From assembly GCA_017649565.1 (NCBI GenBank), contig JAGCGO010000080.1, positions 1 to 64,000 on the forward strand: DNA of 64,000 nucleotides, in the 5' to 3' direction. The notes under the pieces were generated by a model, which worked only from the letters and a program-made list of their open reading frames with translations, had not been told where the DNA came from and did not search any database. This DNA comes from Fibrobacter sp. Its GTDB lineage: Bacteria; Fibrobacterota; Fibrobacteria; Fibrobacterales; Fibrobacteraceae. How positions within the stretch are numbered: the first letter of the stretch is position 1; the number at the start of each line of letters is the position of its first letter. Shown piece by piece: positions 1 to 62,913 of this stretch. The position numbers and the translations under genes are program-made.

Positions 1-126
1 CTTGAACGCCTTGAACGCCTTGAACGCCTTGAACGCCTTGAACGCCTTGAACGCCTTGAACGCCTTGAACGCCTTGAACGCCTTGAACGCCTTGAACGCC
101 TTGAACGCCTTGAACGCCTTGAACGC
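1..126. repeat. 9-bp tandem repeat, 14 perfect copies (CTTGAACGC)
   Basis: CTTGAACGC is repeated 14 times without a mismatch from the window edge and may continue upstream. It lies in frame in the methylase gene and encodes Leu-Glu-Arg. As the unit is a multiple of three, a copy-number change alters protein length without shifting the frame. Confidence 0.97.
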
Positions 127-474
127 CTTGACATTTTTGACATTGACTATTCCGAATTTGACATTGTGTACTTTGACATCCCGTACAAGGGTACGAATAA
201 ATACGATTTTGAGTTTGATTACGACAGATTTTACGACTTCTTTGCCTCACTCGGAAAACCTGCGTTCTTGAGTGAATACAATGCTCCGTTCGAGGCCGTT
301 GCCACTTTTGACAAGGCGCAGAATATGGCTGCGTCCGTTGGTTCTACGGGAAAGAAAGAATCGCTCGAAAAACTCTACTTCAACGGCACCCTTGACGAAT
401 ACAAACGGCTTATGGGTGCAGAATACAGACCTATGGGCGAAAAACAGTTAGACATCTTCGCGGAGTCGGCATAA
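1..474 (+). CDS. Phage DNA adenine methylase, 3' part (5' end outside window)
   Basis: Reading frame 1 is open from the window edge to the stop at 472-474. It begins with 14 Leu-Glu-Arg units from the 9-bp repeat, then reads [27 protein letters not shown] occupies the place of the DPPY catalytic motif of D12/Dam-type N6-adenine methylases and is followed by the usual downstream pattern: [10 protein letters not shown], then LSEYNAPF. From family knowledge, phage methylases often carry variable L-x-R/L-x-S repeats just before this motif. The N-terminal SAM-binding half lies upstream. The stop overlaps the next start (TAATG), so the two genes are co-translated. The substrate sequence cannot be told. 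Confidence 0.75.
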
Positions 475-3907: not shown

Positions 3908-4044
3908 CTTATTATCTCCTTTCGATTGGTGTGTGAAAATGCCTATCGGGTGTTTCCCGAATCGGCTCTCTAATGTCTTTCTGAAATCGCCCGCGTCAGC
4001 TCCCTTCTAGCTATCACGGGGACATGTAATTCCCTTCGTCCGAA

Positions 4045-4053
4045 TGAATAAAA
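4045..4053 (-). promoter_or_regulatory. Late promoter candidate (TTTTATTCA box)
   Basis: Minus-strand TTTTATTCATTCG directly follows the terminator hairpin at 4053-4071 and lies about 137 nt upstream of the 3907 start. One copy of a box repeated through the late block. Confidence 0.55.
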
Positions 4054-11501: not shown

Positions 11502-11523
11502 TCATCCATTCCTTTTCCCGGAA

Positions 11524-11532
11524 TGAATAAAA
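11524..11532 (-). promoter_or_regulatory. Late promoter candidate (TTTTATTCA box)
   Basis: Minus-strand TTTTTATTCATTCCGGG lies 22 nt upstream of the fibre start at 11501, just after the upstream gene ends. No strong hairpin precedes this copy. Confidence 0.55.
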
Positions 11533-16256: not shown

Positions 16257-16276
16257 CAGTAAACCTCGTTTGCACT

Positions 16277-16287
16277 ATGAATAAAAA
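16277..16287 (-). promoter_or_regulatory. Late promoter candidate (TTTTATTCATA box)
   Basis: Minus-strand TTTTTATTCATAGTGC sits immediately after a perfect hairpin and 20 nt upstream of the ATG at 16256. Confidence 0.65.
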
Positions 16288-17886: not shown

Positions 17887-17897
17887 TATGAATAAAA
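17887..17897 (-). promoter_or_regulatory. Late promoter candidate (TTTTATTCATA box)
   Basis: TTTTATTCATAGACGGG on the minus strand lies 5 nt after the stop of the gp10-like gene and 35 nt before the next ATG. No hairpin here. Confidence 0.6.
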
Positions 17898-17902
17898 CGC
17901 GA

Positions 17903-19447
17903 CTACTTGGCGCACGTCACGCCCTTCACGTCCAGTCCGTACAGGGCGAAGCCTATGTTCTCGCTCGAACCGACCTCCACCGCGAGGTACTGCGCCTTGC
18001 CCAGGTTCCTGAAAACCGTGTCGTAGTCGTACGTACCAGCCGAACCGAGAGAACGGGTGCTCGAGGCAACCCATGTCGTTCCGTTTCGGGAGTAACGCAT
18101 CGTTATCACCGGCGCGTGGTCGAGTACGTTGTGGTAGTCGCCGTTGTTCGTGATGAGCTTGATGGAGCCTATCTTGAACGGCTTGTTGTCGCTCGAAATG
18201 ATGCCTCCGGCCCTCTTTCGTAGAATCGGAGTGCCGTCGTGCTCGAACCAGCTATCCTCCGTCACCTTGACCAGGCATCCTTCGCCCTGCAACAGAACGC
18301 TGCCGTCCGTTCCCACGACCGGGTACGAGTAGCGGAAGAAAGTCTCGTTGCCCCTCGTACCCCTGGAACCCATCCTTGTCCACCCGCGTTCGCGGAGGTC
18401 GTAGCAGAACGTGAGACCGTCGGTCGGGAACGTGATTACGTACATCGGATGTGCCAGCCACCTGTACATGAACGCGTACGCCGTCTGCCATTCGCACTTC
18501 AGCATCATGCGTTCGATTTCGTCCGTGGATATACGCTCCGGCCTTGCGTCCGAACCCATCAGGAAAACGGAACCGTCGCCCATGTCTGACGAACCGAGCC
18601 ACGCCACGCTGTCGCCGTACATGGCGAGCGTCTGCGGATTCTTGATTCCGATGTTCTGCGCCGCCGTGTCCGGGCTCGCGAACGGATTATCCATTGAATC
18701 CTGGAACGAGAACACCTGGAAAGAACGTTCTCCGAACGTGAACAGCCTCGAACCGTTGGAACACCCGACAAGCGTATTGTCCGGCTGCCATTCCGAGAAA
18801 GTGTAGTTCCCGTAACCGCCTGTATCGCCGTTAAGGTCCATGATGTCGTCATTGCCCTCGAACGGGTACTGGACGGAACGGTAGAAGATGTCGGTATCCT
18901 TCGCGCCCACCAGCAGGTAGCCGTACATGTATGCAACCCACGAAGGGGTTATACGGTCAGTCTTTGCGTCCGGGTACTTCAGCGGCATCGTTATGATGGA
19001 AAGTTTCTGCGCCACCGGGTCAAGCGTCGTGTCGAGACTGTAGACGTTCACGCCGTCACAGAGTATCAGGTGCGGATGGTTGCGGCCATTGCCGCCCGTC
19101 TCGCAGAACGATACCTTCGCGCTCCCGGCTATGTTGTCTATGAACTGTAGGCCAACATCCATGCCGTCGTCCTTTACGAGGTACAGCTTCTTGCCCCATA
19201 CGCCGTAGACGCACGGCCTTCCGGCGTAACCCCTTGAACAACGGAACGTCCCCTGCGGGGAGCCTTGCGGCAACACGGCATGGTCCGTAATCGCGTCGGC
19301 ATACCCAGGCATAGGGAGAAGCACGACAGAGAATCCCTGCTCGTTAGCGTCCTTCTGCTCGACGAACATGTTGTAGGTGTCCGAACGGCCCAGCTTCGCA
19401 AAGTTGGATTTCTTTGTAAACCCTACGATGTTGGATACAAAGCTCAT
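17903..19447 (-). CDS. P22 gp10-like packaged-DNA stabilisation (tail hub) protein
   Basis: 514 residues. The family pattern is present: an N-terminal R-x-D-T-YNMFVE, LLPMPGYADAIT, then FRCSRGYAGRPCVYGVWGKK, and later GERSFQVFSFQD and TTPR-less WLGSSDMGDGSVFLM repeats of a beta-propeller-like body. In P22 this protein stacks under gp4 and closes the packed head before needle and spikes attach. Overlaps the upstream adaptor gene by 4 nt, as expected for assembly partners. Confidence 0.85.
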   Translation of the reverse strand: MSFVSNIVGFTKKSNFAKLGRSDTYNMFVEQKDANEQGFSVVLLPMPGYADAITDHAVLPQGSPQGTFRCSRGYAGRPCVYGVWGKKLYLVKDDGMDVGLQFIDNIAGSAKVSFCETGGNGRNHPHLILCDGVNVYSLDTTLDPVAQKLSIITMPLKYPDAKTDRITPSWVAYMYGYLLVGAKDTDIFYRSVQYPFEGNDDIMDLNGDTGGYGNYTFSEWQPDNTLVGCSNGSRLFTFGERSFQVFSFQDSMDNPFASPDTAAQNIGIKNPQTLAMYGDSVAWLGSSDMGDGSVFLMGSDARPERISTDEIERMMLKCEWQTAYAFMYRWLAHPMYVITFPTDGLTFCYDLRERGWTRMGSRGTRGNETFFRYSYPVVGTDGSVLLQGEGCLVKVTEDSWFEHDGTPILRKRAGGIISSDNKPFKIGSIKLITNNGDYHNVLDHAPVITMRYSRNGTTWVASSTRSLGSAGTYDYDTVFRNLGKAQYLAVEVGSSENIGFALYGLDVKGVTCAK

Positions 19448-20968: not shown

Positions 20969-20979
20969 TATGAATAAAA
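20969..20979 (-). promoter_or_regulatory. Late promoter candidate (TTTTATTCATA box)
   Basis: TTTTATTCATAGGTGG follows a strong hairpin and precedes the ATG at 20940 by 28 nt. Confidence 0.65.
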
Positions 20980-21570: not shown

Positions 21571-23493
21571 CTAGTACCCCCTGCTCGCGATGATCCGGGC
21601 AGTCTGTTCGCGGTTCGCGTCCACGGCCTTCTGCGCGTCGATGGCGAGTTTCCGTTCGTCGGCCGCTATCTTCGCGGCGGCGGTCGCGTTCTTCGCCGCA
21701 AGTTCCGCCTCGCGGAGCTTCATCTGCTGCTGGAACTGGATGTTCTGAATGTCCTGCTGGCTCTTCATGTTCTGCTGCGCCAGCTCGAGCTCGTAGTTGC
21801 GGCGTTCGAGTTCCTTGTTCTCGGCCTGCACCTGGTCCAGCTTCTCCATCGCCTCGTCGAGCTGCGCTTTCAGCTTCTCGGCCACGTTCATCATCGTTCC
21901 GATGTCCTGGCCTTCCGTGAGCTTCAGTTCCGTGTTCGCCTTCAGGTCCTGCGCGATGTTCTTCGCCACGTCGCTGTCGATTGTCTCGGCTAGACGGATG
22001 GCGCACAGTTCCTTGTGGGCGGGGTCCGCCATCTCGGCTATCGCCTGGATTTCGGAGCGGATTTTCATTTTCGCGGTAATGACCGACGGGCCGCCTTCGA
22101 GCGTGAACTGCGGCACTTCGCCGTTGTTCAGGATTCCGAGCATGATGCGTCCGAGCGCGTGACAGGCGGCTTCCGCGTGCAGGTAGAGTTCCTGCACGTT
22201 GGATTCCGAGTTGATCTGCTGCTGCATTATCTCGTAGGCCGTGCGCTGCGTAGTGTCGAGGCCGGAGAGGTTCACGCCGGAGCATTCCTGCATCGTCTGG
22301 CGGCCTTCCTGTAGCGCGGCGGAAATGTCCGCCGTGTTGAAGCTGTCGTTGACGAGTTGCGGTTGCGACGCACCGGCCTTGTCGTTCCAGGTGAGCCACA
22401 TCGCGGAGCCCTTCTCGAAGTCCGTGAAGTATTCCTCGCAGCCCTCCGTGGCCGACTTGCCGACCACGCCGCGGACGTTCGAACAGCGGCGCATGCGGAG
22501 CGCCTGCATCGTGAGGGCCACGCTCATCTGCTCGATCTGCGGCATCATCTTCTGCACGTAGCCGACGTAGACCTGGCCGTATTCGGAGCTGTAGTCCGTG
22601 TAGCCCGCGAATCGGACAATCGGGATGATGTCGGTCATGAGGTCCACCGGGTTGCGCACCTCGCGTTCGCCGCATATCGTGTGCATGCGGACGAAAGTCC
22701 TCTTTACCGTCTTCGGCGGCATTCCGGACTGTGCGTCCGGCGACGGGAATTCCTTCGTGACCTTGCGGAAGTAGCGGACGAGCTGTACCTTGTCGGTCTT
22801 GTCCTGCCAAGCCTTGATTCCGGCAAAGGACATCTGCGGCTGTCCCGACGGGTAGTCCATCGGGACGATGTCCTCGCCGTACTCTCTCTTGGCTTTCGTG
22901 ACGGATATGTAGCTGATGATGGCGCCTTCCTCCGCGTCGCAGCCCGAGGGGTCTATGCAGTCGGGGTCGATGGCCACCTGCTTCTGGTCGGCGATGAACT
23001 CGATGCTTGGAACCACCTTGCCGTCGGCGAGGCTGGTGCCTACTACCACGTAACCGGCGGCGCACGTTACGCCGCGCGTGAAGGCTCGCTGGTAGACGTT
23101 CTTCGCGTTGTTGGAGCTCTCGATCTTGGATATGGCTTCCTGGATGGTCTTGCCGCCATTCTCTTCCGTACGGTCAACCAGGTTCACGTGGAAGGGCGAA
23201 CGCGAGAACGGCGACGCGATTGCGTTCACCTGCGGCGATATGTTGTTGTAGGGAATGGTCGGGATGAGGTCGTTTCCTTCCTTGTCGAGGATGGCCCACC
23301 TCTTCTTGTTCTCGCCCACGCCCCAGAAGTTGCCGCCCGCCACTTCGAGGGCGAGTTCCTGGTCGTCGATGTCGGAGCACCACCTGTCGCTTGCGCGCTT
23401 CAGGAAGTCCCTGCATTTCTTGATGATGTCTTCGTCTTCTTCCGGCATCGGCGCGAAGCCGTTGTTTCCGTTGGCCTGTAAAATTCCTTCCAT
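21571..23493 (-). CDS. Portal protein (P22-like)
   Basis: 640 residues. An N-terminal helical wing (EDIIKKCRDFLKRASDRW) leads to WAILDKEGNDLIPTIPYNNI and VNAIASPFSRSPFHVNLVDR, the pattern of P22-type portals. A stem/crown region follows, then a long C-terminal coiled coil (residues 520-640) like the P22 barrel. The dodecamer forms the DNA channel and docks terminase and adaptor. Unlike P22, the gene lies downstream of coat and scaffold. Confidence 0.85.
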   Translation of the reverse strand: MEGILQANGNNGFAPMPEEDEDIIKKCRDFLKRASDRWCSDIDDQELALEVAGGNFWGVGENKKRWAILDKEGNDLIPTIPYNNISPQVNAIASPFSRSPFHVNLVDRTEENGGKTIQEAISKIESSNNAKNVYQRAFTRGVTCAAGYVVVGTSLADGKVVPSIEFIADQKQVAIDPDCIDPSGCDAEEGAIISYISVTKAKREYGEDIVPMDYPSGQPQMSFAGIKAWQDKTDKVQLVRYFRKVTKEFPSPDAQSGMPPKTVKRTFVRMHTICGEREVRNPVDLMTDIIPIVRFAGYTDYSSEYGQVYVGYVQKMMPQIEQMSVALTMQALRMRRCSNVRGVVGKSATEGCEEYFTDFEKGSAMWLTWNDKAGASQPQLVNDSFNTADISAALQEGRQTMQECSGVNLSGLDTTQRTAYEIMQQQINSESNVQELYLHAEAACHALGRIMLGILNNGEVPQFTLEGGPSVITAKMKIRSEIQAIAEMADPAHKELCAIRLAETIDSDVAKNIAQDLKANTELKLTEGQDIGTMMNVAEKLKAQLDEAMEKLDQVQAENKELERRNYELELAQQNMKSQQDIQNIQFQQQMKLREAELAAKNATAAAKIAADERKLAIDAQKAVDANREQTARIIASRGY

Positions 23494-23531
23494 GACAAAA
23501 AAGCCCTTCTATCCAATAGGTTCTAACGACC

Positions 23532-23542
23532 TATGAATAAAA
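23532..23542 (-). promoter_or_regulatory. Late promoter candidate (TTTTATTCATA box) upstream of portal
   Basis: TTTTATTCATAGGTCG on the minus strand, 38 nt before the portal ATG. A second copy lies 46 nt further upstream. Confidence 0.65.
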
Positions 23543-23577
23543 GGGCCTCTGCATCAGGAGGGATAATATGCAGGCAA

Positions 23578-25180: not shown

Positions 25181-25191
25181 TATGAGTAAAA
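25181..25191 (-). promoter_or_regulatory. Late box variant (TTTTACTCATA)
   Basis: One mismatch to the consensus, 32 nt upstream of the ATG at 25148, in the divergent gap with the plus-strand cassette. Confidence 0.5.
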
Positions 25192-28491: not shown

Positions 28492-28502
28492 TATGAATAA
28501 AA
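28492..28502 (-). promoter_or_regulatory. Late promoter candidate (TTTTATTCATA box) for scaffold and coat
   Basis: TTTTATTCATACCACGG follows the hairpin 28504-28526, 75 nt before the scaffold ATG. A weaker variant (CTTTACTCACA) lies at about 28461. Confidence 0.65.
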
Positions 28503-28503
28503 G

Positions 28504-28526
28504 AAGGCCCCCGAAAAGGGGCCTTT
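28504..28526 (-). terminator. Terminator hairpin fused to late box
   Basis: GGCCCC-ttttc-GGGGGCC with a TTCTTTT tail on the minus strand; ends the 28556-29275 transcript. Confidence 0.85.
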
Positions 28527-28555
28527 TGTTTCATGACTGGTGAAAATCCTAGTCG

Positions 28556-29292: not shown

Positions 29293-31350
29293 CTACATCT
29301 GCTTTGGGTTCACTGGCTTTCCGCGGCTCGCGCGGTACTTGCCAATCTTACGGCCGAGTTCGTGACCGAATACGCGGTTGAGGGAATCCTGGCGGAACTG
29401 GTCGCGCCATTCGTTAGCGATGTTTTTACGAATGTCATTAAGTTCGGCCTGATAATACTTGTCTTCGAGAGGCTTGTAGAGTTCGGGGTCCTTCGTTCTC
29501 GTTACATGGATCAATGCTTGGTCGTAATCCTTTACGTGGTCGAGTTCGGGATGTTCTGCAAGGTACTTTTCGGTTTCTTCAAAAATCTTGTTTTCGATTT
29601 CTTCGTCAAGTCTAGCCCTTCCGCTCGCCCTCTGCCTTGCGTATTCCTCCGGATGTTTCATCCATCGTTTGTTATAGCTTAACGGCTGCAACTTGTTTTC
29701 GTCAATCATCGAACCAAGCGCTTTCTGTCTTTGAATACGGATTTCAGGAGTCTTCAATATGTCATGAAATTCGTCAATCTGCTGTTTTGCCTTCAGTGGG
29801 TCATTTTCTTCAAGGAAAGAGTCTATCTTGTCCTTGTAGTTTTCACGCAAGAACTTGTTATTCCAGTCGCGGATTGCGGCAACCTTGTCTTCTTTAGAAT
29901 ATCGAGGAATGCTTGAATTGGATGCACGACGGGCGTCATTCGGATTTCTCCAATCGCCAATATTGAAACGGAACCCTGCGTTCTTGAGGTAGTCATGCGG
30001 GTTAGAATACCTTGCCTCGCTCGGAACTTCTATTCCCTGCGTTTCAGCCCTCTTTACAAACAGGTCGTCGTCATAATAAGAATCGGAATTCAAGAAAGAC
30101 TTGAAAGACTTCTGGTCGCCTATTACGTCGTTCATGAATTTCGCTGTTCTAGGGGCTTCTATTCCAGGACCAAACACATTTTGAGGACCGTACCCCCTTC
30201 TTACTATTCCTTTGGAAAGGCTTGGGGAATCTTCAGTAGCCCTTGCAAAATCGTAAGGCGTTTCAAATTCAGTATTCTCGAACCATTGCCTACGGGCTTT
30301 GTATGGAAGGTTGTTTACGGCGTTGGCTTCAATATCACGACGTCTCGGGTTTTTCGGCATCGGAAAAGCGTCCATAAACTCACCACGTCTCAATCCTCCG
30401 TAAGCAACGCTTCCGTTATTTTCGAGAATGTACTTCTTGTTTTCGGTTTGCGCGTTGTCTACAATCCATTGTGCAATTTGGTTGTCGGTAGCGCCATCGC
30501 CAAGGGTTTCCCTAGCTTTCTCGACAAGTTCAGGTGAAGACGTTTCTACAAAGCCTCTATCCCTTACAAGAATTTCCTTTTTGTTAGGTGCGTATCCGTA
30601 CAATGTATTAGAACCATCGGCAAAGTGCATGGTCCAGTCTTTCGGGAAATCGTAACGGCTGATATACTCCGGCGGAATTACTACAGTTGCGTCTTCTCCG
30701 GCTACATTCGCGGTTCCGTACGGCTTCGAAGGCGAACCGCGAAAAACCATTACCTGGTCGTCGCCTGTCTTTCCCGTATGGTCAACATACATTGACTTCC
30801 ATTCATCTTCGGGAATGCGGATTTCTAGCGGGTCCATGCGGTAGTTCTTGTCGCCGACAAAAGCATTGTTCACGTAGTCGTAGCCCATCGGGTTTGCGTC
30901 ACCCATGCTCGTCCATACACCGGCTCTTTTTTGGAAATTCTTTGCGTCCGGCCCGAGTCTTTCAACCAATCCAGTCTTCAGGATGTTCTCGATGTTTTCC
31001 GGCTGCGTGTAGTGGAAGGCGCGGACGTAGCGTTCGCCGGTTTCGGGATCAATCCACACCTTCGGGGAGCGTTTTACCTTCTCACCCGCCACAAGAAGAT
31101 AACTACGCCCTGCATCATAATATCTATGATTTTCTCCACCCGGAACAAGTTCGGGGAAAGACTTTGAAAAGATATTTTCGTCAAGGTTTTCTGCGTAAAG
31201 CTTATTCCTGTTTCGACCGGTCCTTTCCGGGTACATTTCCCCGCGCTTGACCTCGAATCGGCGCCAAGCGTCGTTGCGCGCGGCGTCCGTCTTCGCGTTC
31301 TTGAATTCCCTGTACAAAATTTCTAGCGGAGTGAGTTTCTTGTTTGCCAT
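29293..31350 (-). CDS. Large virion cargo protein with ADP-ribosyltransferase-like domain
   Basis: 685 residues. The N-terminus MANKKLTPLEILYREFKNAK is a distant form of the shared tag. Residues 108-150 read YVRAFHYTQPENIENILKTG, then RAGVWTSMGDANPM: an H-Y-x-T / NI-x-x-IL-x-x-GL / GVWTS series typical of H-Y-E-type ART folds. DPLEIRIPEDEWKSM follows, and VVIPPEYI (about 225) offers the catalytic Glu. The C-terminal 330 residues are helical, charged and probably non-enzymatic. It is the best ART candidate of three. The ATG lies only 7 nt after a late box, so the mRNA may be nearly leaderless. Confidence 0.6.
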   Translation of the reverse strand: MANKKLTPLEILYREFKNAKTDAARNDAWRRFEVKRGEMYPERTGRNRNKLYAENLDENIFSKSFPELVPGGENHRYYDAGRSYLLVAGEKVKRSPKVWIDPETGERYVRAFHYTQPENIENILKTGLVERLGPDAKNFQKRAGVWTSMGDANPMGYDYVNNAFVGDKNYRMDPLEIRIPEDEWKSMYVDHTGKTGDDQVMVFRGSPSKPYGTANVAGEDATVVIPPEYISRYDFPKDWTMHFADGSNTLYGYAPNKKEILVRDRGFVETSSPELVEKARETLGDGATDNQIAQWIVDNAQTENKKYILENNGSVAYGGLRRGEFMDAFPMPKNPRRRDIEANAVNNLPYKARRQWFENTEFETPYDFARATEDSPSLSKGIVRRGYGPQNVFGPGIEAPRTAKFMNDVIGDQKSFKSFLNSDSYYDDDLFVKRAETQGIEVPSEARYSNPHDYLKNAGFRFNIGDWRNPNDARRASNSSIPRYSKEDKVAAIRDWNNKFLRENYKDKIDSFLEENDPLKAKQQIDEFHDILKTPEIRIQRQKALGSMIDENKLQPLSYNKRWMKHPEEYARQRASGRARLDEEIENKIFEETEKYLAEHPELDHVKDYDQALIHVTRTKDPELYKPLEDKYYQAELNDIRKNIANEWRDQFRQDSLNRVFGHELGRKIGKYRASRGKPVNPKQM

Positions 31351-31357
31351 ATCGCAC

Positions 31358-31368
31358 TATGAATAAAA
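31358..31368 (-). promoter_or_regulatory. Late promoter candidate (TTTTATTCATA box)
   Basis: TTTTTATTCATAGTGCGATATG: the box ends 7 nt before the start codon at 31350, leaving no room for a normal SD if transcription begins downstream of it. Confidence 0.65.
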
Positions 31369-32617: not shown

Positions 32618-32628
32618 TATGAATAAAG
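32618..32628 (-). promoter_or_regulatory. Late promoter candidate (CTTTATTCATA box)
   Basis: CCTTTATTCATAGGACG on the minus strand, 7 nt after the stop of the HEXXH gene and 46 nt before the next ATG. Confidence 0.6.
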
Positions 32629-34368: not shown

Positions 34369-34379
34369 TATGAATAAAA
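34369..34379 (-). promoter_or_regulatory. Late promoter candidate (TTTTATTCATA box)
   Basis: TTTTATTCATAGTCCG directly follows the terminase stop and a small CGGC-ggta-GCCG stem. Confidence 0.6.
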
Positions 34380-34391
34380 CGGCTACCGCCG

Positions 34392-35666
34392 CTAGAACAT
34401 CCGCATCTTCTTGTACATGCTGTTCACGGCCACGTCGAGCGTGGACATCTTGCGCCTGTTGTAGTACGCGAGCGCGAGCGCGTCCGAGCTGTCCGGGGAG
34501 CGCTGGAGCACCTTCTTGATGACATCCTTGCTCACCAGCAGGCACTTGCCCGACACGTTGACGTCCGAACTGATGATGCGGAGCTCCTCCTCGGTCTCCG
34601 CGTCGTCGAGACGGAATTCCAGCTTCATCGCCTCGGCGAGACGGAAGAACATCTCCGCGCGGGCGTTGGCGAAGTGCTCGTGGTCCTCCGCGGCCTGCCC
34701 GAAGTTCGTGAAGTAGACCTGTAGGCTCGGGTCCAGCTTCAGGAAGTCGTATATGGCCTGCCCGTAGCCGCCCGTGCCGTCCACCGTCACCTGCCGCACC
34801 TTGTACTTCTGTATGAGCCCGCGGGCGATACTGTTCATCTCGAAGGAGTCGGCCTTCTGTATCTTGACCTTCTCCAGGATGTGCACGTCGTCGATGACGT
34901 AGAACACGTTGTAGTCGCGCCCGTGTCCGGCGCAGTCTATGCCCATGGAGGCGTAGCCCCTCGGCGGCTGCCACATTCGCCCGAAGCAGTCCGAGGTGAA
35001 TACGGCGCTCTCGATGTCGCCCGAGAGTATCTGCCCCTGGATTTCCTGACGGTACAGGTCGCCCTTCAGGAAGCGCTTCATGTTCTCGCGCTCCGCCTCG
35101 GTCACATGGGTGTTGTCGTCGATGGTGGCGCCAGTCACCACGCGACCCAGCTCGTTGTTCAGCACCATGCGGTCGCACTGGCCACCCTTTCGCGGGGTGG
35201 TCGCGTAGATAGTCTGCGGCTCGAACCTTGCACCGCGCATCGTGGGGGCCACGGCCGCAAAGAGCATCGGAAGGTCGTCAGCCTTGGCGAGCTCGTCGTA
35301 GCACACGGTAGACACGCCGTCGGCACCGCGGCACACGTCGTCGTAATTTCGGTAGGATGCGCCCCAAAGGATTCCGGTGGAGCCGTCCACGGAAATTGTC
35401 TCGTCCGACTTGTTCCAGGTTGCGGTGAGCCCCCACGAACGTAGCGTGGAGAGCATTCGCGGCATCATCTGCTTTCGGAGAAGGGAGTTGGTAGGCGTGA
35501 GGTACAGCACGTTCTCGCCGCTCGCGAGCGCTATGCAGGCCTTGTTGTGCATCACCCAGCTCTTGCCAACGCCACGGCCGGAATACATGCCCGAGAGGCG
35601 CTCCCTCTGTGTGAAGAAGGACCGCTGGTATGGTTCCGGCCTGATGTCTACGTTGATTGTCCGCAT
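34392..35666 (-). CDS. terL: Terminase large subunit
   Basis: 424 residues. The N-terminal packaging ATPase has Walker A SGRGVGKSW (29-37), Walker B VCYDELAK (121-128) with the catalytic Glu, and coupling motif ATTPRKGG (156-162). The C-terminal nuclease domain supplies Asp in GIDCAGHGRDY (about 244), VDGTGGYG (about 296) and SPDSSDALAL (about 396). It drives DNA into the prohead through the portal and cuts the concatemer. Preceded by a probable small subunit, 23 nt apart. Confidence 0.95.
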   Translation of the reverse strand: MRTINVDIRPEPYQRSFFTQRERLSGMYSGRGVGKSWVMHNKACIALASGENVLYLTPTNSLLRKQMMPRMLSTLRSWGLTATWNKSDETISVDGSTGILWGASYRNYDDVCRGADGVSTVCYDELAKADDLPMLFAAVAPTMRGARFEPQTIYATTPRKGGQCDRMVLNNELGRVVTGATIDDNTHVTEAERENMKRFLKGDLYRQEIQGQILSGDIESAVFTSDCFGRMWQPPRGYASMGIDCAGHGRDYNVFYVIDDVHILEKVKIQKADSFEMNSIARGLIQKYKVRQVTVDGTGGYGQAIYDFLKLDPSLQVYFTNFGQAAEDHEHFANARAEMFFRLAEAMKLEFRLDDAETEEELRIISSDVNVSGKCLLVSKDVIKKVLQRSPDSSDALALAYYNRRKMSTLDVAVNSMYKKMRMF

Positions 35667-36272: not shown

Positions 36273-36298
36273 AAAAAGGACGGCACAGTAGTGCCGTC
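36273..36298 (-). terminator. Terminator between 36335 and 36208 genes
   Basis: GACGGCAC-tact-GTGCCGTC, a perfect 8-bp stem, then CTTTTT on the minus strand. Unlike other sites, the hairpin lies downstream of the late box, so a transcript from that box would need to read through. Confidence 0.8.
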
Positions 36299-36301
36299 AC
36301 C

Positions 36302-36312
36302 TATGAATAAAA
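36302..36312 (-). promoter_or_regulatory. Late promoter candidate (TTTTATTCATA box)
   Basis: TTTTATTCATAGGTGACG, 93 nt upstream of the 36208 ATG and just before a terminator hairpin. Confidence 0.5.
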
Positions 36313-37075: not shown

Positions 37076-37104
37076 GGTACAAGTCCTCTATGAGTTTCCG
37101 CACT

Positions 37105-37115
37105 ATGAATAAAAA
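37105..37115 (-). promoter_or_regulatory. Late promoter candidate (TTTTATTCATA box)
   Basis: TTTTTATTCATAGTGCGG, 30 nt before the ATG at 37075, after a 10-bp perfect hairpin. It is the first late box after the sigma gene. Confidence 0.65.
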
Positions 37116-37123
37116 CGGAAACG

Positions 37124-37155
37124 GCGGACGCGCAGGAGAAACAACGCGTCCGCCG
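37124..37155 (-). terminator. Terminator after the sigma operon
   Basis: A 10-bp perfect stem (GGCGGACGCG/CGCGTCCGCC), then GTTTCCGTTTTT on the minus strand. It would stop the early transcript of the sigma gene before the late boxes. Confidence 0.8.
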
Positions 37156-37203: not shown

Positions 37204-37449
37204 CTACCGTCCGCGGCGTTCCTTCGGGGTACGGCGCCACAGGCACTTGTGGCCGAGGAGGTTGATTTCCTTCACGAGCACCTGCGCCACCTGCAAGGTC
37301 AAGTTCGAGTTCAGGTCGCCGATCTTCATTTCCACCGGTACGGGGAGCTGGAATTCCATCCCGTTGTCGAAGGCGATGACCTCGAAGCGCACGACCTTCG
37401 ACTTCGGCACCTTCTTATCGGAATTACCTGTATTCTTCTTCGTTGCCAT
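37204..37449 (-). CDS. Hypothetical small basic protein
   Basis: 81 residues: basic ends (ATKKNTGNSDKKVPKSKV; RRTPKERRGR) around a beta-like core (RFEVIAFDNGMEFQLPVPVE, LTLQVAQVLVKEINL). Lies directly after the sigma-like gene, before the first late terminator, so it is probably co-expressed with it and might be a sigma partner. Not recognised. Confidence 0.6.
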   Translation of the reverse strand: MATKKNTGNSDKKVPKSKVVRFEVIAFDNGMEFQLPVPVEMKIGDLNSNLTLQVAQVLVKEINLLGHKCLWRRTPKERRGR

Positions 37450-37470: not shown

Positions 37471-38133
37471 CTATGCGCGTACCAGCCTGCACGGCAGGCC
37501 CCCGCGGCTGAACTGTCTCACCGCGCGACGGACTTCCTGTAGAGTCCGCTCGCACTGCTCCACCGTCCACCCCATGTTGCGGTAGCGACGGAGCCACATT
37601 TTCCTGGCGTTAAGGACGCAGTTCTTCGAGAACCTGGAATCCTTCTGCGATACCGTCTTGACCTTGCGTCCCGCAGTATTGAGCCTGTCGGCGCAGACGG
37701 ACTCCACCACGTCGGCACCGTCAGCGGACAGAACCTTGCCGCAATGTGCGAACAGCTCGGAGTAGCCGTCGTCGGCCATGCGTTCCGTGTATTCTATCGT
37801 GGAAGGCATTATCACGGACTGGTTCACCTTTACCTCGAATCCTCCGTTGTCCGCGAAGTCGTCGATGCTGTCCGGTTTCGAAAGGCCGCCTTGTCCGTCC
37901 GGCACGAGCACGTTGCGGGCCTCGTCGTTGAGGCATTTAAGCCGGTGGTAAAGGTAGGTGGTGAAAGACGTGCCCTTGGACTTGTCGAAGTCCCGCGTGG
38001 CGTCCATGAATACCGTGTTGGCGATTGACTTGAGTTCGTCTCTGTCGAGGTAAGGCTTCGCGCTCGCGACTTTCCCGACGCACAGGTCGATAATTCCCTC
38101 GCACCGCCTGTAGAGTTCTTCTGTAGCTTCCAT
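37471..38133 (-). CDS. Phage sigma-70-like factor, candidate late transcription activator
   Basis: 220 residues. Residues 28-75 match sigma-70 region 2: LDRDELKSIANTVFMDATRD, FDKSKGTSFTTYLYHRL, then NDEAR (core-binding and -10 recognition). The C-terminal 70 residues are basic, with a possible helix-turn-helix (NCVLNARKMWLRRYRNMGWT) where region 4 would lie. It is the first gene of the late block, driven by its own strong host-type promoter. The simplest model is that it redirects host RNA polymerase to the TTTTATTCATA boxes. Confidence 0.7.
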   Translation of the reverse strand: MEATEELYRRCEGIIDLCVGKVASAKPYLDRDELKSIANTVFMDATRDFDKSKGTSFTTYLYHRLKCLNDEARNVLVPDGQGGLSKPDSIDDFADNGGFEVKVNQSVIMPSTIEYTERMADDGYSELFAHCGKVLSADGADVVESVCADRLNTAGRKVKTVSQKDSRFSKNCVLNARKMWLRRYRNMGWTVEQCERTLQEVRRAVRQFSRGGLPCRLVRA

Positions 38134-38151
38134 ATTATCCCTTCACTACAC

Positions 38152-38180
38152 AATATACATTTTGCGTCATTTTTTGTCAA
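38152..38180 (-). promoter_or_regulatory. Host-type sigma-70 promoter for the phage sigma factor
   Basis: On the minus strand, TTGACA (38175-38180), exactly 17 bp, then TATATT (38152-38157). Start of transcription expected near 38145, 12 nt before the ATG. No late box lies here. Confidence 0.8.
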
Positions 38181-38270: not shown

Positions 38271-39677
38271 ATGGCAAAAGGAAGCGTATCTTACATGGCG
38301 GTGATGGAACTCCGCCCGGACGAGGTGGAATTCGACCCGAAGAACCCCCGTTCCGAAACCGGCGACGTGAGCGACCTGGTCGCGAGCCTCAGGACTCACG
38401 GGCTCATCCAGCCCATCACCGTGCGCCGTACCGACGAAGGCAAGTTCGTGGTGGTCGCAGGGAACCGCCGTCTCGCCGCGCTGAAGGAACTCAAGCGCTC
38501 CGTGAACGCCATCGAGGTGGAATTCTCCACCGAGAAGGAATCCCAGGAAGTATCCGTAGCCGAGAACATCGTGCGTTCGCAGATGTCGCCCGTTGACGAG
38601 GCGAAGGCCGTGGCGAGCCTTTTCCGCCGCGGCAAGGGACGAATGGAAATCGGCGCCATGTTCGGCAAGTCCCCGCGCTGGGCGGAAGCACGCTACCGCA
38701 TCGCGAAGTTGGGCGGAAAGGCCCTCGAATACCTGGAACAGGGAAAGATCAACCTCGGACACGCCGAGGCGCTCACCGTATGCCCCGAAGACGACATCGA
38801 CAGATTCCTGGAACAGGCCAAGTGGAACACTCCCGAACAGCTCCGCGCGGCCATTCTCCGCAGCCGAAAGTCTCTCGACAACGCATGCTTCGACTGCAAG
38901 AAGGTGTGCGAGGGCTGCACGAAGAAATCCGACTGCCAGCAGGACCTCTTCGGCGACATCAAGGACGTGTACTGTCTCGACGAGCAGTGCTTCGAGGAAA
39001 ACGTGAAGAAGTTCGAGGAACAGCTCGCCGATAGCTGGAGGGTGAACGGCTACGAGCGCGTCCCCGAAGGCGAGGACAGCGACGCCTGCAACGGTTACGG
39101 CGAATGGGTCGCCGACGAGGAATGCAACGCCGACGAAATCGCGGAGCTCAAGGAAAAGGGCGTTAAGCCGATGTTCTGGGTTTACGAAGGCAAGTCCGGC
39201 CTCGCATACCGCGAACCCGAAGATGAAACGGAAGATTCCGAAGGCGAAGGCGAACCCGACGACGGACTTTCCTGGAGCGACAGGAACGCCATCGAGCACA
39301 AGGTGTGCGCGGTGGACGAACCGCACGTTCGTGCCAAGGTACACGACTTCGTATCGACACTCGATGACATCCAGGTGTCATTCATTCTCGCCACCCTAAC
39401 GAACTGCCGCTACGAATACACGGAATGCGACGCCGACGGCAACCATACTGACAAGGACGAATCGTTCCTGCTGCACGTAGGCGACGAGGTCGGCGAAAAG
39501 CGTCAGCGCGACATCTTGGAAGACGAGATCGTTGAATCCGTACTCGGTTACAACGGCGTACGCAACGGAGACGAGCGCGGCTACTTCGGATGCCTCCCGA
39601 AGGACGAGACAATGCAGAAGGCGAAGGAACTCTGGGAATCAGAAAAGTCTAAAAATAAGGAAGATGCTAATGAGTAA
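38271..39677 (+). CDS. ParB-like DNA-binding protein
   Basis: 468 residues. The N-terminal ParB/Sulfiredoxin-like domain shows VEFDPKNPRSETGDVSDLVA, SLRTHGLIQPITVRR, VVAGNRRLAALKEL (the G-x-RR box) and VAENIVRSQMSPVDEAKAVA. An HTH region (MEIGAMFGKSPRWAEARYRI) follows. A Cys cluster (CFDCKKVCEGCTKKSDC, about 208-225) may bind zinc. The acidic C-terminus is phage-specific. ATG 38271 is chosen with AAGGG 10 nt upstream; a GTG at 38232 is possible. May act in plasmid-like segregation or as an early regulator; no parA seen. Confidence 0.8.
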   Translation: MAKGSVSYMAVMELRPDEVEFDPKNPRSETGDVSDLVASLRTHGLIQPITVRRTDEGKFVVVAGNRRLAALKELKRSVNAIEVEFSTEKESQEVSVAENIVRSQMSPVDEAKAVASLFRRGKGRMEIGAMFGKSPRWAEARYRIAKLGGKALEYLEQGKINLGHAEALTVCPEDDIDRFLEQAKWNTPEQLRAAILRSRKSLDNACFDCKKVCEGCTKKSDCQQDLFGDIKDVYCLDEQCFEENVKKFEEQLADSWRVNGYERVPEGEDSDACNGYGEWVADEECNADEIAELKEKGVKPMFWVYEGKSGLAYREPEDETEDSEGEGEPDDGLSWSDRNAIEHKVCAVDEPHVRAKVHDFVSTLDDIQVSFILATLTNCRYEYTECDADGNHTDKDESFLLHVGDEVGEKRQRDILEDEIVESVLGYNGVRNGDERGYFGCLPKDETMQKAKELWESEKSKNKEDANE

Positions 39678-62053: not shown

Positions 62054-62913
62054 ATGGCAGCGACGGCTGAAAAAGAATTGCTGGGGCTCCGTTCCAGGGC
62101 TTCCGACGAAATCGCCAAGAGACTCCGCTCGATCCACGACAGGGACTACTACTCCGTTCTCGGGGACTTCTTCGAGGCATCGGCGATTTCCGTCAAGAAC
62201 GCGGTAGACCTGAACGACCGCGAGGTCTACGAGAAGCGCTTCGCCGACATCGCGAAATCTTACGGCGATAAGGGCATGAAGATTTTTGCGGAGTGCCTGT
62301 CGCTGTTCGCCGGAGAAATAAACGACGCCATCCACGGCAACGCCATGTTCCGCGACTTCGCGGGAGAGTTATACATGGCGAGCGGAACGAACTCGAAAGG
62401 GCTCGGGCAGTTCTTCACGCCTTACCACGTTTCGCGAATGATGGCAGAATGCAACCTTTAAAAGGACCGTTTCATCAGCGAAATAGAAGAGAATCCAGAC
62501 CGAGTCATAACATTCTACGAGCCTACGTGCGGAGCCGGTGGACTCATGGTGGCCGCCATCGACGTGATGCACGCGGCAGGCATAAACTATGCTCACAACA
62601 TGTTCATCGACTGCGGAGACATAGACCGCGCTGCTTCCACATGAGCTACCTCACGCTGTCGCTCCTTGGCGCACCGGCCGTAGTTCGTCTTGGCGACGCG
62701 CTCGCCATGAAGTATCACCGGGCATGGTTCACCCCGGCGTACATATTCAACTGGCCACACTTCAAGAAGGAACTGAACGGAGGCAAGCTGGACTCCTACC
62801 CCGTCACGCCCACCAAGCACGCGAACCCCGATAACAAGGTAGAGACCGAAAAGATTGGATCGTCGCCATTGACACCTACGATGGACGCAAACGGACAGTA
62901 CAGCCTTTTCTAA
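62054..62913 (+). pseudogene. N6-adenine DNA methylase, broken by a TAA and a frameshift
   Basis: Frame 1: MAATAEKELLGLRSRASDEI through NSKGLGQFFTPYHVSRMMAE, the N-terminal type I-like methylase pattern, to TAA at 62459. Reading on in the same frame: FISEIEENPDRVITFYEPTC-GAGGLM, the SAM-binding motif, and FIDCGDIDR. Near 62630 one base is missing, after which CFHMSYLTLSLLGAPAVVRL and WFTPAYIFNWPHF continue in frame 1 of the coordinates to 62913. Two independent lesions suggest decay or sequence errors. Would modify phage DNA if intact. Confidence 0.75.

Follow-up and report, generated by a model that had tools for sequence, protein, structure and literature searches.

The late promoter of T4 is TATAAATA. 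The C-termini of T4 gp43, gp55 and gp33 are similar in being hydrophobic and acidic, bind the clamp and are swappable, and this mode of late transcription has been called unique to phages related to T4 (PMC2988020); the authors of a 2021 structure paper on it anticipated that other examples exist in nature (PMC7892883). Among podovirus-type phages, phiEco32 and 7-11 have their own sigma factor for late genes, together with a short -10-like motif (PMC4331800). A literature search naming Fibrobacter found no account of the transcription of its phages. Here, we analyzed a 64,000-nt stretch of a phage contig (hereafter the window) assigned to a bin that is Fibrobacter-related, as judged from the primary-sigma-like gene of its own genome, which is 70% identical to that of an uncultured Fibrobacter and 51% identical to that of a Fibrobacteria MAG.

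The first-pass annotation had read a sigma-like gene at the head of the late block as the logic of an early-to-late switch. This logic is supported by a region 2, a host promoter and a late-box regulon, by sigma homologues from viral contigs, which share 25-62% identity with it, and by a sister phage, G004. In our main reading, to which we assign a probability of roughly 0.8, host RNA polymerase with the host sigma would make a minimal phage sigma early from a host-type promoter, TTGACA-17-TATATT; the phage sigma, judging by its fold, would bind core RNA polymerase via domain 2 and would direct it to the -35-less, -10-like late box TTTTATTCATAG, copies of which would open leftward virion and packaging transcripts. 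The early-to-late switch would proceed by sigma replacement and not by an antiterminator of the P22/lambda type, and in several relatives a sigma with a QDELF or QEELF tail would couple late transcription to replication via a sliding clamp. The sigma gene and its surroundings comprise the following features:

38133..37471, minus strand: phage sigma factor gene, a real open reading frame of 220 aa; sigma domain 2 at residues ~2-76, a variable linker, and a conserved C-terminal helix pair at residues ~176-208
38180..38152, minus strand: host-type promoter TTGACA-17-TATATT of the sigma gene, 11/12
37204..37449, minus strand: 81-aa gene downstream of the sigma gene
37122..37155, minus strand: terminator-like hairpin (-26 kcal/mol, z -4.6) between the sigma transcript and the first late box
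38274..39677, plus strand: ParB-like gene (PHROG_6218, E 1e-25), divergent from the sigma gene and opening a rightward early-type block

Both peptides quoted earlier for this protein, DELKSIANTVFMDATRD and FDKSKGTSFTTYLYHRL, are present in the open reading frame, and the C-terminus, which ends GGLPCRLVRA, is basic as claimed. The proposed region-2-like sequence was borne out as well: PHROG_351 ('RNA polymerase sigma factor') matches residues 1-63 (E 5.7e-7), Pfam Sigma70_r2 matches residues 29-65 more weakly (E 0.0025, under Pfam's curated cut-off), and the best PDB matches of a profile built from six homologues are nearly all sigma factors, mostly RpoS, WhiG, SigH and SigE, each of them weak (E 0.07-0.5). 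In an AlphaFold model computed from the six-homologue alignment, residues 1-76 reach a pLDDT of ~85, and the C-terminal half is of low confidence. VIA-align superimposes residues 2-76 of this model onto domain 2 of sigma70, sigmaS, sigmaB, SigE and sigma28 (Z 9-11, rmsd 1.6-2.0 Å over 70-75 residues), the aligned part of E. coli sigma70 being residues 375-447 (regions 2.1-2.4). These trimmed domain-2 alignments alone were used, and whole-model alignments at an rmsd of >20 Å were set aside. Although a Z of 9-11 can be reached by chance for helical bundles, nearly all matches listed here were sigma factors and the sequence evidence was concordant. Of regions 2 and 4, for which a structure check had been proposed, region 2 was supported by the AlphaFold model, but region 4 was not found in the window sigma (no family match in Pfam or PHROG); the C-terminal helices 176-184 and 191-208 are modelled at pLDDT ~50-70.

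That the individual sequence scores to known sigma factors are modest speaks against our main reading. With domain 2 alone recognisable and a Pfam score under the cut-off, the gene product might be a degenerate sigma-domain protein with a structural or DNA-binding role and no function as a transcription factor. We give this hardly any credence, because domain 2 and the C-terminal helix pair are both retained in homologues with as little as 25% identity, and because the gene has a conserved strong predicted promoter of its own. Among named phages, Bacillus phage Troll gave the sole match to the window sigma. By megablast, the 20-44 kb part of the window matched no phage and the 1-25 kb part no plasmid, and a profile search of bacterial genome contigs returned no sigma homologue. 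In 111 genomes of the family, the sigma was found on its own contig only, apart from one weak match with stops.

The claim of a perfect host promoter was essentially, if not literally, correct: TTGACA-17-TATATT ranks first among 12 promoter-like sites in the region of 20-40 kb and recurs at -47 in front of the homologue (62% identical) of L001-L003, but it scores 11/12. The 81-aa gene, for which no known family was matched, is probably part of the sigma gene's transcript. It is 93% identical in relatives, as against 62% for their sigma. The hairpin at 37122..37155 is retained in L001/L002. As the first-pass annotation had stated, no late box lies upstream of the sigma gene to drive it, and late boxes follow after the next terminator, with sigma gene, 81-aa gene and hairpin preceding, in this order, the first late box (37114).

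The late box is phage-specific, lacks a -35 and reads TTTTATTCATAG; it punctuates the late block after the sigma gene. From right to left, the sites of this block and its recognised packaging and virion genes are:

37104..37114, minus strand: late box TTTTATTCATA, 29 nt upstream of gene 37075
36302..36312, minus strand: late box TTTTATTCATA, with a hairpin and T-run directly after it
34392..35666, minus strand: terminase large subunit (TerL; PHROG_2, E 1.3e-32)
34369..34379, minus strand: late box TTTTATTCATA, downstream of TerL
32618..32628, minus strand: late box CTTTATTCATA
31358..31368, minus strand: late box TTTTATTCATA, with an ATG about 8 nt further
28492..28502, minus strand: late box TTTTATTCATA, with a terminator-like hairpin directly before it
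25181..25191, minus strand: late box TTTTACTCATA
about 23584: second site before the portal gene, CTTTATTCATT
23532..23542, minus strand: late box TTTTATTCATA, before the portal gene
21571..23493, minus strand: portal protein (PHROG_156, E 3.2e-27)
20969..20979, minus strand: late box TTTTATTCATA
17903..19447, minus strand: head-closure protein Hc3 (PHROG_578, E 2.3e-49)
17887..17897, minus strand: late box TTTTATTCATA
16276..16286, minus strand: late box TTTTATTCATA
11522..11532, minus strand: late box TTTTATTCATT
4043..4053, minus strand: late box TTTTATTCATT

At 36279-36312 (minus strand), the late box immediately precedes a perfect hairpin of 20 nt with a T-run, a layout also seen in L002; the start expected for this box (36302) would land at the stem edge of the adjoining hairpin. 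The box before the portal gene adjoins a small hairpin (ATAGGT...ACCTAT; 23490-23545, minus strand) followed by GGGC and a T-run, and the arms of this hairpin are kept in L013 with a changed loop. Boxes ~8 nt before an ATG occur at 31350-31368 of the window and at 28519-28535 of G004, so that nearly leaderless late mRNAs would result, provided that the start codons are correct. The contig start (window 1-150) carries CTTGAACGC repeats in tandem.

When up to one mismatch is allowed, TTTTATTCATA is found at 14 sites in the window versus 0.77 expected, all on the minus strand, with 13 falling within 4-37 kb. In the first 38.2 kb, there are 13 copies of the 9-mer TTTATTCAT on the late strand and none on the opposite one; the late-block sites of TTA[TC]TCAT are intergenic in 14 of 14 cases, and the core box pattern is present in 11-12 of the 16 late intergenic regions of the window (p about 1e-16). 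The information content upstream of the box, from -45 to about -8, is close to zero, which argues that there is no -35, and purines are enriched about 6 nt downstream of it (+13 to +16 of the box). The genes that would be served by late boxes include those for TerL, the portal and the head-closure protein Hc3. Of the 12-mer TTTTATTCATAG, the phage contig carries eight copies and the remaining 119 contigs of the 3.45-Mb genome a single one, so that it does not represent a host promoter class. The late boxes are most likely phage promoters, predicted to open leftward virion and packaging transcripts.

Start codons follow the late boxes at distances of about 8 to more than 90 nt. This variation, the position of boxes after terminator-like hairpins, where a new start is needed, the fit of the purines at +13 to +16 to a start site, and the sigma fold encoded in the gene set make it very unlikely that the boxes act in late mRNA as processing or translation signals, with late expression resulting from readthrough or antitermination, even though several boxes directly adjoin hairpins and some are located only about 8 nt from an ATG.

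Turning back to the boxes as promoters, sigma and late box are both present in the close relatives L001-L003. The sister phage G004 (50 kb) has virion genes related to those of the window (TerL 73%, portal 63%, Hc3 62%) and encodes a full-length homologue of the window sigma with 27-28% identity. Two predicted promoter classes were discernible in this phage, host-type TGCTATAAT for the early and TTATTCAT for the late genes, the latter being present in 8 of 9 late intergenic regions (p 9e-14) and, in total counts, 11 times on the late strand versus 0 on the other. That sigma, box and virion block are kept together across the distance to G004 is the main argument that sigma and box belong together. 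Judged from this genome architecture, the window sigma would recognise the late box.

More distant relatives complicate the picture. TTATTCAT is not enriched in G115/G116, despite their sigma homologue, nor in L132/L133, whose sigma homologue is 25% identical. As the sigma of G115/G116 is about 50% identical to that of box-bearing G004, either the specificity must differ or the link between sigma and box is indirect. G115/G116 virion genes did not match any of the window's, and a search for a late box in these two phages yielded no convincing motif in either strand block, so that the specificity link between sigma and box is one that we infer. The protein could instead be a sigma for another gene set or for host genes, in which case the TTTATTCAT boxes would depend on an activator or on the host sigma plus another phage protein. 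This would be in line with the two clades that have homologous sigmas without enriched TTATTCAT, and with the observation that, in the alignment, the presence of the box is not mirrored by the residues that should recognise the -10 element. We nevertheless consider it unlikely, as the sigma gene heads the box-bearing block, as G004 keeps sigma, box and virion genes together, as the box has no -35 and is not of a class used in the host genome, and as no phage RNA polymerase was recognised in PHROG scans (not all small ORFs covered). With sigma replacement at the late boxes as the preferred reading, a phage sigma and a probable late-promoter regulon are now in hand for phages of a Fibrobacter-related host.

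In five phages (L021/G004, L022, L024, L029/G115 and L030/G116), the sigma ends QDELF or QEELF, a tail that persists across a large length difference just upstream of it. Directly after the sigma gene, relatives encode a protein of 94-103 aa ending G[DE]LF; in L029/L030, one QueC-like gene (judged by eye only) lies between the two. An open frame of 640-659 residues, seen in three relatives, ends DDLF and contains FDIETYP, DVASLYP, KLVLN..SGKFG and NTDS, which are motifs of family-B DNA polymerases; the name polymerase rests on these motifs, since Pfam gives only DNA_pol_B_2 (E 1.2). In G004 and G116, exactly three predicted genes end in LF, encoding the sigma, its short neighbour and the DNA polymerase. 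G115 has two more predicted genes ending in LF (G115:C1 35309-35746 and 48226-48639), whose products end EEDLF and DGELF and are possibly extra clamp binders. As candidate clamp we consider the product of a 370-379-aa gene immediately upstream of the polymerase gene in relatives, located at 11388-12500 in L022. It gave no Pfam or PHROG match; its two best PDB profile matches are beta clamps, both weak (E 0.44 and 1.8), and its top Foldseek matches are beta clamps as well, but the query model, with a pLDDT of 39, is too poor to stand alone. L021 additionally encodes a clamp-loader-like DNA_pol3_delta2/AAA protein (Pfam E 4.6e-11). By analogy to gp55/gp33/gp43/gp45 of T4, a sliding clamp probably links late transcription to replication in the tailed relatives.

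The window sigma has no C-terminal clamp-binding motif and ends LPCRLVRA, like the L132/L133 clade (LPCNLIPST), which makes the tail look as if it had been added to a core common to all of them; the tail-less window sigma presumably works in a 'basal' mode. Polymerase-B motifs were not found in the window. Its only predicted gene ending in LF is the open reading frame 62293..62913 (plus strand; NGQYSLF), which was discarded because the upstream part looks spurious. The end of this frame, QYSLF, is close to the bacterial beta-clamp consensus (QLSLF), and the C-terminal ~37 residues of the frame are conserved in phage G002 (73% identity). We see the odds as evenly balanced that a branch outside the T4-like phages tethers a sigma and a small co-activator to a phage clamp, either independently of T4 or diverged beyond sequence similarity, with the window phage representing the tether-less sister form. 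If true, this would provide a natural coupled/uncoupled pair on the same virion lineage and with the same core late box. The clamp-tailed relatives are concrete candidates for clamp-coupled late transcription other than that of T4, and the surprise lies there, not in the window phage.

With P22 and lambda, the window phage shares related head genes (portal and head-closure Hc3 by PHROG); unlike these phages, which use an antiterminator (gp23/Q) and one late promoter, it has many predicted late starts, each with a box, and a sigma gene. A sigma factor combined with a P22-type virion had been expected to be a different strategy, and a sigma/box architecture is indeed seen instead of an antiterminator, but the podovirus-type phages phiEco32 and 7-11 provide a precedent. 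The window sigma is akin to phiEco32 gp36 and the 7-11 sigma, which are about 215 aa in length and made from host promoters, and further likenesses are a phage-specific -10-like motif without a -35 (TAATGTATA; TGATGT core there) and virion genes in one strand block (PMC4331800). The phiEco32-type strategy, i.e., a host promoter for the sigma gene and phage-specific -10-like late promoters, is thus found here at the level of sequence only. The differences are the lack of detectable sequence similarity to gp36 (hhalign probability 0.4%), another box, and a sigma gene that heads the virion block, whereas it resides in a functional (replication) cluster in phiEco32/7-11. Like T4 gp55, the window sigma has a domain 2, with no region 4 recognised in it, and the predicted late promoter has no -35; the box core TATTCATA matches the T4 late promoter TATAAATA at 6/8 positions. 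As in T4, the sigma, its small neighbour and the DNA polymerase of the relatives have acidic-hydrophobic C-termini in common (PMC2988020). Unlike gp55, the window sigma carries no clamp tail, and its assignment to gp55 (PHROG_234) by sequence was rejected at an hhalign probability of 0.1-0.2%; PHROG_234 is matched by T4 gp55 and not by the window sigma. The closest sequence matches to the domain-2 part are PHROG_351 and the SigF-like gp209 of Bacillus phage Troll (E 5.7e-7 and 6e-4), where about 65 residues match and the rest of the window sigma does not. In its strategy the system resembles that of phiEco32 and 7-11, in its anatomy the sigma resembles the T4 gp55 core, and by sequence it is a member of neither family.
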